Source: an uncultured Nitrospirota bacterium (GTDB taxonomy: Bacteria > Nitrospirota > Nitrospiria > Nitrospirales > UBA8639). Taken from it: DNA of 64,000 nucleotides. A program made the translations under genes and the position numbers. The stretch covers positions 1 through 64,000 of the forward strand of contig CAKZPV010000034.1 in assembly GCA_937139405.1 (NCBI GenBank), given 5' to 3'. The notes under the pieces were generated by a model. It was not told where the DNA came from and made no database searches. It saw nothing but the letters and a program-made list of their open reading frames with translations. Positions 43,551 through 46,121 of this stretch are shown piece after piece. Positions within the stretch are counted from its first letter, which is position 1. Each line of letters starts with the position of its first letter.

Positions 43551-43558
43551 CTAAAGAG
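43551..43558. repeat. left copy of 8-bp target site duplication (CTAAAGAG)
   Basis: Identical CTAAAGAG octamers flank the element immediately outside its inverted ends. Eight bases is the duplication length known for IS1595 family elements. Confidence 0.92.
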
Positions 43559-43582
43559 GGCGATTATGTTTGTATTGACACC
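43559..43582. repeat. left terminal inverted repeat of the IS1595 element
   Basis: 24 bases beginning GGCGATTATGTTTG and ending TATTGACACC. It matches the right end at 21 of 24 positions. Confidence 0.92.
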
Positions 43583-43635
43583 GAGGGTTATTCCTGATAC
43601 CATCTTCTCGAAATTACAAATGAGGAGAGCGAATC

Positions 43636-44541
43636 ATGAAGACCATTGATGCCTTTGACAAACAATTCCCCACTGAAGAGGCCTGTAAAGCCTTCTTGGT
43701 TCAAGCCAGATGGCCGGACGGCGTAAAGTGTCCGCGTTGCTGGGGAACCAAGAAAATCTATGCGTTGAAAACGAGGCCCTTTCATTGGGTCTGCAAGGAG
43801 TCGGGTTGTGGTGGGCGCAATGGTTTTCGTTTCTCGATCTTACGCGGCACCATTTTCCAAGATACCAAGATTCCGCTCATTCTTTGGTTCAAGGTGGGCT
43901 ATCTCATGTTAGTCGCCAAGAAAGGCGTGAGTGCCCTCCAAATGCATCGCGTGATATTTGGTGAAGATGCGGGGTCGGATTATCGAACCACTTGGTATAT
44001 GTGCCATCGCTGGCGATCAGCCATGAAGGGCGATGTGCTTCCCCTGACTGGCGAAGTGGAAATTGATGAGACCTATGTCGGTGGGAAGGAAGGGAATAAA
44101 CATCGGAGCAAACGCGCACACAAAGGCACAGGCGCAACTGGCAAGGTGGGCGTCATTGGAGCTATTGCTCGAAAAGGTATGGTCGTGGCTCAAGTGATTG
44201 AACAGACTAATGCTGAAACCATCCAAGGATTCGTCAGCCAGACCATTGCTGACGATGTGTCTCTCATTGCAACCGATGAACATTCGGGCTATCGAGGATT
44301 GAAGAAGAAAGGCTATCCGCATGAGTCCGTCTCTCATAACAAGGGGGAATATGTGCGCGGCAATGTCCATACTGCGAATTTAGATAGCTTCTGGTCATTG
44401 TTTAAGCGTGGCATCATGGGCAGTTTTCATCATGTGAGTAAGGAGTACCTTCCTCTCTACTTGAATGAGTTTTCGTATCGGCACAATGCACGCAATAATC
44501 CAGACGCCTTTGCAGAGTTGATTACGACGAGCAACTACTAG
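43636..44541 (+). CDS. IS1595-family transposase
   Basis: A 301-residue DDE-type transposase. The N-terminal zinc-ribbon-like part (CPRCWGTKKIYAL and a later CKESGCGG) is followed by the ISXO2/IS1595 core with EIDETYVGGKEG, the second acidic site near IATDEHSGYRGL, and the end region DSFWSLFKRGIMGSFHHVS with the conserved Asn/His stretch (YRHNARNNPDAF). All catalytic regions look intact. ATG 43636 has GAGGAG eight bases before it. It sits at the left end of its element, as expected. Confidence 0.93.
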   Translation: MKTIDAFDKQFPTEEACKAFLVQARWPDGVKCPRCWGTKKIYALKTRPFHWVCKESGCGGRNGFRFSILRGTIFQDTKIPLILWFKVGYLMLVAKKGVSALQMHRVIFGEDAGSDYRTTWYMCHRWRSAMKGDVLPLTGEVEIDETYVGGKEGNKHRSKRAHKGTGATGKVGVIGAIARKGMVVAQVIEQTNAETIQGFVSQTIADDVSLIATDEHSGYRGLKKKGYPHESVSHNKGEYVRGNVHTANLDSFWSLFKRGIMGSFHHVSKEYLPLYLNEFSYRHNARNNPDAFAELITTSNY

Positions 44542-44573
44542 ACGATCAAACATTAAAGACCTACAATATAAGG

Positions 44574-44708
44574 GTGGCTATCACCCAAACTACCAAAGAC
44601 GCGGACGACCGCCTCAGAAAAGAACTGCAAAACGCCGACATAGGTAAATTTAAAAAGGCCGTGAAGAAGACACTCGGTCCACCCAAGACTCCAATCAAAA
44701 AAAAATAG
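44574..44708 (+). CDS. small basic ORF following the transposase
   Basis: A 44-residue frame from GTG 44574 reads DADDRLRKELQNADIGKFKK and ends in a Lys-rich tail (KTPIKKK). No family was recognised. The ribosome site (AAGG) is too close to be good, so the start is uncertain. Its stop is 8 bases before the next gene's ATG, which suggests coupling. Confidence 0.45.
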   Translation: MAITQTTKDADDRLRKELQNADIGKFKKAVKKTLGPPKTPIKKK

Positions 44709-44716
44709 GAGACTAC

Positions 44717-45022
44717 ATGCCTTCTGCACCAATTATTGAACTGTCATTTCATCGTAATTGTAATGAGGGAATACCTGCGGAGTGCGACGCGTCGTATGGC
44801 CAGATTATCAAAGGGAGAATCCGAAGGCTCTTCGGGATACTCTTGAGAAGCCTTCGGATTCCTGGTGCGATTTCCGATACCAGCATCACCGATCCAGTCA
44901 CCCTTCAAATCATCGATATTAGCGTGGGAGTGTTCTTCACAAAAATATCTGTGAATGGACGCGACTACTACTTCAGCCGCTTCACTGGAAAATATGATGG
45001 AGCTGGCATGGGATGTGGTTAA
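44717..45022 (+). CDS. cargo protein of unknown function (IS1595 element)
   Basis: A 101-residue protein with AGGAG six bases before ATG 44717. Cysteines lie in FHRNCNEG, PAECDAS and at the end (GAGMGCG). A beta-rich C-terminal half (LQIIDISVGVFFTKISVNG) is visible. No family is recognised. A perfect 13-bp inverted repeat (44817-44861) lies inside its coding sequence. It overlaps the end of the GIY-YIG gene by four bases on the opposite strand. Confidence 0.6.
   Translation: MPSAPIIELSFHRNCNEGIPAECDASYGQIIKGRIRRLFGILLRSLRIPGAISDTSITDPVTLQIIDISVGVFFTKISVNGRDYYFSRFTGKYDGAGMGCG
44817..44861. repeat. perfect 13-bp inverted repeat inside a cargo gene
   Basis: GAATCCGAAGGCT (44817-44829) pairs exactly with AGCCTTCGGATTC (44849-44861) across a 19-base loop. 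At protein level it makes the near-symmetric IRRLFGILLRSLRI. It has no T-run, so it is not an ordinary terminator. Confidence 0.85.
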
Positions 45023-45303
45023 CCTACTTTCTGGTTACACATAGGCTGACATTCCACTATTAGACGTTTTTCCTCGTCATCATAATCGGCAGTTACCACT
45101 CCCATCCAATGGGTCGGGTGCTGTCGGTTAATACACGGATTGTCCCCATTTAAGTGAGCACGAAGCCTTTCTCGAATATCTCCCTTCCCTATATAAATCC
45201 ACCGGCCTTCACGGAATATTCCGTAACAACCCTTTTGGTTTGGGCTAAGAGATTCGATGTCTGACTTGGCAAATGGCCTTGGTTTTTGTTTTGGAAATGG
45301 CAC
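45019..45303 (-). CDS. GIY-YIG domain protein (IS1595 cargo)
   Basis: A 94-residue single-domain GIY-YIG-fold protein. The GCYGIF and WIYIGKG strands form the two signature tripeptide regions, with the catalytic Arg in DIRERL. A C-terminal Glu and Asn lie in VECQPMCN, the positions expected for catalysis, so all needed residues appear present. A GTG (45303) start lies eight bases after GGAAGGAA. Such small proteins may be nucleases acting on branched or nicked DNA. Its presence on a transposon suggests a role in the element's movement or in DNA uptake, but this is inference. Convergent with the preceding cargo gene, overlapping by four bases. Confidence 0.83.
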   Translation of the reverse strand: MPFPKQKPRPFAKSDIESLSPNQKGCYGIFREGRWIYIGKGDIRERLRAHLNGDNPCINRQHPTHWMGVVTADYDDEEKRLIVECQPMCNQKVG

Positions 45304-45534
45304 AGCGTTGATTCCTTCCTGGAATTTCGTTGCGAATTAAATACCTCACATGGTATAATTCACATGGTTGTTTTTTGCCCAAAAAAAAGTGGTGTTATGG
45401 AGGCGGTTTCCCGCCCCCTTCACCCTTGCTAGGGGTGGTGTTCACGTCGTCATCTGATAGGTTCACCTCCTTCCTACGATTTGGCGGTCCCGAGGTCTTC
45501 TTGCCGGAGGATGAACGGGGCCGCCAATTTTTGT

Positions 45535-45930
45535 TTAAGCACTCAACATAATCTCGTCGCCTTCCAACCGCTGTATTTTCCCTCCCTCAACAAGACGGCA
45601 AATGCTTGTATAGAAGTAGCTATACCGTCTCCCAAAGCGGCGCATTGGGTAGCCCTGGGTTTCCAACTTTCTTCGCAGAAATCCAACGCCGACTGGTCTA
45701 TCAAGTTCGCTCAGACATGTAATTATGGCCTCAGATGGTTTCATTTGAGCGATCGAATCTGGATTGTATGCCTTCCGGCAATTAGGGCATCGGAATTTCC
45801 ACCTACTGCGCTCTAGCTGGTCCAGAAATGACTCAAGACCAGTGATCTTGTCAGGGTCTATGCTGCTTAATAACGATCCTAAGGCAGCAACAGCGGCGTC
45901 CCGAGAATCAACATTTTGTATACATTCCAT
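45535..45930 (-). CDS. cargo protein with a possible winged-helix end (IS1595 element)
   Basis: A 131-residue protein from ATG 45930 with TAGGGGGG just upstream. A longer frame reaches 45984 without a site. A single CPNC knuckle (FRCPNCRKAYNPDSI) is followed by a C-terminal segment (PVGVGFLRRKLETQGYPMRR ... FYTSICRLVEGGKIQRLEGD) that reads like a winged helix. The function is unknown, possibly a regulator of the element. After the stop, the -1 frame stays open for about 40 more codons ending in a low-complexity tail, which may be chance. Confidence 0.55.
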   Translation of the reverse strand: MECIQNVDSRDAAVAALGSLLSSIDPDKITGLESFLDQLERSRWKFRCPNCRKAYNPDSIAQMKPSEAIITCLSELDRPVGVGFLRRKLETQGYPMRRFGRRYSYFYTSICRLVEGGKIQRLEGDEIMLSA

Positions 45931-46089
45931 AATTGGCCCCCCTAGGAATAGTGATACCCCCCAATTTGATGGGTATTCTTTCATAGGGAATTCACTGTGT
46001 CAACAGCAATTTGCGGTGAGCTTGCGGTGAGCTATTTCAATGAAAAATTGGGGTAGGAATATACTTAAATCTTACGCTATCATGCAATG

Positions 46090-46113
46090 GGTGTCAATAT
46101 CAACACAATCGCC
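46090..46113. repeat. right terminal inverted repeat of the IS1595 element
   Basis: Mirror copy of the left end, reading GGCGATTGTGTTGA inward, with three mismatches to it in 24 bases. Confidence 0.92.
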
Positions 46114-46121
46114 CTAAAGAG
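46114..46121. repeat. right copy of 8-bp target site duplication (CTAAAGAG)
   Basis: Exact copy of the left octamer, directly after the right inverted end. Confidence 0.92.

Follow-up and report, generated by a model that had tools for sequence, protein, structure and literature searches.

The IS1595 family of insertion sequences, as set out by Siguier et al. in 2009, reportedly includes members that carry passenger genes, the transporter IS. Passages in two further papers (PMC3129680, PMC7986276) use the same name for insertion sequences with passenger genes. Such passenger-carrying elements blur the border between insertion sequences and transposons.

We analysed a stretch of 64,000 nucleotides from an uncultured member of the Nitrospirota (hereafter, the window). 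In this Nitrospirales genome, an intact transposon of 2555 bp lies at 43559-46113. It has the 8-bp target duplication (TSD) of the IS1595 family, and it has genes unrelated to transposition inside both inverted ends (TIRs), which is a feature of transporter IS; here, GIY-YIG-like and winged-helix ORFs lie between the transposase gene (tnp) and the right TIR. The features of the element are as follows.

43551-43558, no strand: left copy of the 8-bp TSD, CTAAAGAG, from direct-repeat and shuffle analysis
43559-43582, + strand: left TIR, GGCGATTATGTTTGTATTGACACC, holding a TTGACA -35 box
43575-43603, + strand: predicted inward tnp promoter, TTGACA-17-TACCAT, a 10/12 sequence match with TG before the -10
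43636-44541, + strand: intact IS1595-family transposase, 301 aa, zinc ribbon and DDE domain
44574-44708, + strand: mini-ORF, 44 aa, GTG start, KDADDRLRKELQNADIGKFKKAVKK type, part of the core module of the element and not of the cargo
44717-45022, + strand: cargo ORF, 101 aa, from the ORF call
45019-45303, - strand: small GIY-YIG nuclease-like protein, 94 aa, from motif residues
45535-45984, - strand: zinc-ribbon and winged-helix protein, 149 aa; alternatively 131 aa at 45535-45930, with an ATG at 45930
46069-46097, - strand: predicted inward right-end promoter, TTGACA (inside the TIR)-17-TAAGAT, a 10/12 sequence match, reading into the leftward cargo
46090-46113, - strand: right TIR, pairing with the left TIR
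46114-46121, no strand: right copy of the 8-bp TSD, CTAAAGAG, a perfect match to the left copy

The two TIRs are identical at 21/24 positions, while the best inverted-end match in 100 shuffled sequences was 17/24. When we compared every pair of 8-bp direct repeats spaced by 0.8-6 kb within the 10 kb around the element, the second-best inverted match was 13/24. Together with the perfect TSD and the intact tnp, these ends bear out the original prediction of an intact cargo-carrying IS1595 transposon at these positions, and the four further ORFs that it had claimed (44 aa, 101 aa, GIY-YIG and 131 aa) do exist, the last of them alternatively as 149 aa. The element is single-copy in its own genome, in which we found no second copy, no cargo-only copy and no other pair with these TIRs; because there is no other copy, the case for recent mobility is made by the TSD and the ORF, both of which are intact. 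A search for the joined flanks in 60 relatives found no orthologous site and no empty (uninterrupted) site.

The transposase matches PF12762 (DDE_Tnp_IS1595; 139.9 bits, E 9e-41, cut-off 27), PF12760, which is the N-terminal zinc ribbon (43.7 bits, E 2.6e-11, cut-off 25.4), and NF033547 (189.2 bits, E 8.6e-56, cut-off 75). A zinc ribbon is present at the N-terminus in every IS1595 subgroup except IS1016 (PMC8101967). The putative third acid of the DDE motif, which we assigned by position as lying seven residues before a conserved K, is D (HTANLDSFWSLFK) in place of E. Among 25 clade members, 19 have D and five have E at this position, and the motif was unmatched in one. The target duplications of members with D are perfect, so this residue appears to be compatible with activity.

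We fetched loci of related transposases and scanned them for inverted ends with duplications. Including that of the window, 19 complete elements were recovered, with a length of 1.8-3.2 kb and a tnp 47-91% identical to the window tnp. Perfect 8-bp TSDs of differing sequence flank 15 of these elements, one has a TSD matching at 7/8 positions, and three are without. Their hosts are Nitrospirales as well as MAGs labelled Deltaproteobacteria, Proteobacteria or Binatia, and the nearest transposase, which is 91% identical, is from MAG OFTM42. In all 19 elements, 868-2185 bp separate tnp from the right end. Among related clade transposases, none had ends directly around tnp alone, an arrangement that had been named beforehand as counter-evidence to the claimed element.

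Members of the family usually have one transposase gene (PMC8101967), and the window might accordingly hold a conventional single-gene IS1595 beside resident host genes, with the end at 46113 being an unrelated TIR-like sequence. We consider this extremely improbable given that the perfect 8-bp duplication lies exactly at both ends of 43559-46113, that there is no TIR closer to tnp, and that 14 relatives at unrelated sites share this long architecture and likewise have perfect TSDs. A second tier comprised 20 IS1595 loci from the same order that are more distant; approximately 15 of them also have a perfect duplication and 0.95-2.7 kb of extra DNA, the ends being weaker in some. Their cargo includes a C5 methyltransferase, an N6 methyltransferase, a PIN protein, a P63C protein and a glycosyltransferase. 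Because this tier shows extra DNA too, cargo-carrying is common in this IS1595 branch and not specific to the window. We conclude that the window element belongs to an IS1595 clade of transporter IS.

In DNA comparisons with related elements, homology to the window element extends from the left end through tnp and ~125 bp beyond, and then ends; on the right side, related elements have only the last ~25 bp, i.e. the TIR, in common. When we considered all pairs of elements whose tnp identity is 70% or more (92 pairs), a single pair (1/92) had cargo-side DNA in common, and these 95 bp, in L031 and L032, cover a displaced mini-ORF. L045, a relative with 91% identity, has a different gene straight after the mini-ORF. 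As judged from these comparisons, the left TIR, tnp and the mini-ORF form a conserved module that is followed by unrelated passengers, and the right end keeps only a TIR of ~25 bp. Altogether, we favour the interpretation that the element is a cargo-carrying transporter IS of the IS1595 family consisting of a fixed chassis and an exchangeable cargo slot, with a probability of about 0.82.

Cargo types in the clade include DUF3800, DUF4145-type and RelA/SpoT-type proteins, along with many others to which no Pfam family could be assigned; several of the latter have apparent membrane segments. L054 and the tnp-less remnant L096 have the first cargo protein in common (59% identical) while their second ones are unrelated, a pattern that we read as cargo reassortment. 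The mini-ORF of L031 and L032 is separated from tnp by a cargo gene, giving two possible cargo positions.

The original prediction held that the cargo should recur with the transposase. In the sampled relatives, it does not; rather, what recurs is tnp together with the mini-ORF, and almost every copy has different cargo. The same results bear on the proposal of a fixed, co-adapted cargo set, e.g. a toxin-antitoxin or defence module, that defines the transposon and travels with it. The cargo genes are small and of the nuclease or regulator type, and two cargo genes of related elements match PDC-S33 and PDC-S42, as such a set might lead one to expect; however, none of the recovered elements has the window's cargo combination, relatives of the GIY-YIG and winged-helix proteins occur separately, and the window cargo has no PADLOC match. 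A fixed set is already contradicted for the sampled clade, and we regard it as very unlikely overall. The two matches are to candidate single-gene phage defence families: the L050 cargo protein matches PDC-S33, which has a RelA/SpoT domain (E 2.5e-119), and the L043 cargo protein matches PDC-S42 (E 2e-71). Among the PADLOC matches listed for 48 cargo proteins were PDC-S33, PDC-S42 and methyltransferase models, with one member each. The idea that the cargo is generally anti-phage was unsupported, each of the families listed being matched by one member of these 48 proteins.

The 44-aa ORF had initially been counted as cargo together with all other content outside tnp. While this assignment stands for the 101-aa, GIY-YIG and 131-residue ORFs, it fails for the 44-aa ORF, which is present downstream of tnp in 25/25 clade members and occurs in two sequence types. 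Type one, in the window and nine others, reads KDxDxRLRKELxxADxxKFKK, and type two, in 15 members, reads MPKAKPVSLHPLSFDEAIKALL; in both, a lysine-rich tail follows. Neither type has a Pfam family above the cut-off. Profile searches of 147 genomes gave 21 and 7 matches for the two types, of which 18/21 and 5/7 adjoin an IS1595 tnp. Several of the remaining matches adjoin cargo-like genes, and these tnp-less matches look like remnants. L096 (G018:C291) and L097 (G020:C9) have the mini-ORF and cargo-like genes and no transposase, and are apparent decayed copies. In four more distant IS1595 elements (L086, L088, L089 and L091), a relative of the type-two mini-ORF is on the opposite strand just after tnp.

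The mini-ORF is very short and the homology of the left module stops near its 3' end, both of which would fit a cis-acting DNA or RNA element at the boundary of the cargo, marking it, with the ORF as its by-product and not a protein. Against this, third codon positions have most of the substitutions in both types (per pair, 4.8/2.8/8.9 and 4.1/3.0/11.1 differences at the three positions) and the reading frame is conserved. Moreover, the mini-ORF of L031 and L032 remains a unit at a distance from tnp, being kept despite the intervening cargo gene. The frame in L032 has one stop. Overall, a cis-acting element is unlikely, and we infer that the mini-ORF may encode a small accessory protein with a basic tail that acts in transposition or its regulation.

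We surveyed promoters in 21 complete elements, i.e. the 19 of the clade and two more distant ones, scoring a TANNNT hexamer at 16-18 bp (background 2.65%). A left-end -10 at this spacing was present in 19/21 elements. At the right end, a -10 was found in 10/15 elements with a leftward last gene versus 0/5 with a rightward one (Fisher p 0.03, for a pattern that was noticed post hoc). In the distant IS1595 tier, a right-end -10 was present in 0/5 leftward-cargo elements, and there were two positives among the rightward ones. Because the pattern was noticed post hoc and is absent in the leftward-cargo elements of the distant tier, we confine it to this clade, in which the right TIR probably supplies the -35 box for leftward cargo. 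That right TIRs drive cargo across all IS1595 elements was rejected, as it fails outside the clade.

The GIY-YIG-like protein was identified by motif residues, its Pfam score (15.4 bits, E 0.024) being below the cut-off of 22.6. It has CYGI..YIGKG together with R, E and N, and the putative catalytic Tyr/Arg/Glu/Asn residues are kept in relatives in two other Nitrospirales genomes; no ends were detected around these relatives, and phage records gave no match to the protein. The 149-aa protein combines a CxxC pair with a predicted winged-helix domain. In its AlphaFold model, residues 61-130 mostly have a pLDDT of ~90, and Foldseek matched Fur, linker histone and RNAP delta structures in the PDB with a probability of 0.98-1.00, although with E-values of 0.018 or weaker. 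The protein is thus modelled with a winged-helix fold; plasmid records gave no match to it. A search of 147 genomes detected no relative of the 101-aa ORF. This ORF holds a perfect 13-bp inverted repeat at 44817-44829/44849-44861 with a 19-nt loop. The window cargo matched no known or candidate defence family in PADLOC, and nothing solid was found in PHROGs, Rfam or PDB sequences, an archaeal RNase P match being far below the gathering score. In total, the GIY-YIG nuclease-like protein, the zinc-ribbon winged-helix protein and the 101-aa orphan probably form a small nucleic-acid-acting module that benefits the host or the element.

A relative of the window's winged-helix protein is cargo inside L068, an IS1595 element of another subgroup, and three further relatives lie inside L067, L069 and L070, which have GGTAGTG..GCAGTTTG ends and perfect 8-bp TSDs. 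The L067 transposase belongs to PF03400, i.e. the IS1 family, and the family call holds where examined. These IS1-family-type transposons are 2.6-3.0 kb (L067:5095-7695, L069:4778-7673 and L070:3567-6602), and in L067 and L069, a small basic protein (KNPAAVALGRLGGLKGGKARA) is present in addition. Because winged-helix relatives are cargo in both, the IS1595 and IS1 families appear to use cargo genes from a shared pool.

In a working model of the chassis with its exchangeable slot, the transposase, expressed from the left-end promoter, would cut at both TIRs and insert the element with an 8-bp staggered cut, and the right TIR would give the -35 of a cargo promoter. Cargo could be exchanged by recombination, or when the transposase pairs its left end with a right end that belongs to a different element close by; such exchange would be feasible because a right end would need no more than ~25 bp. 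It is also possible, albeit doubtful, that the left TIR, tnp and the mini-ORF are a dedicated gene-capturing chassis, in which the mini-ORF protein helps to choose or process the right end and new single-gene modules are repeatedly acquired, with a cargo pool common with IS1-family transposons of the same bacteria. With a module that stays constant, an unnamed but conserved mini-protein and cargo that turns over almost totally, the clade offers a tractable system for asking how simple transposons gain and replace genes. The TSDs set the boundaries and so delimit each cargo exactly; most cargo proteins are unannotated, and some match candidate phage-defence genes.

Integron gene cassettes are variable small orphan genes that are inserted and removed behind a constant module, and the window element resembles them in having such genes behind such a module. 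Unlike integrons, no integrase and no site-specific recombination were seen in the window element, and one cargo stretch is framed by the TIRs of a DDE transposase. The IS1-family cargo transposons have, like the window element, an 8-bp TSD and a winged-helix relative, but differ from it in transposase family and TIRs. IS1595 transporter IS are alike in the zinc-ribbon and DDE transposase, the 8-bp TSD, the short TIRs and the passengers between tnp and the right end. By contrast, the clade's own features are a mini-ORF that all members have kept after tnp, the almost complete replacement of cargo between close relatives, a -35 box in each TIR and, in most of the clade, D replacing E at the third acidic position. 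In a limited search of the open-access literature, we found no description of the mini-ORF or of such cargo turnover; the 2009 IS1595 paper may cover some of this. We file the element as an IS1595 member and a transporter IS, and what is new is its arrangement as a chassis and a slot.
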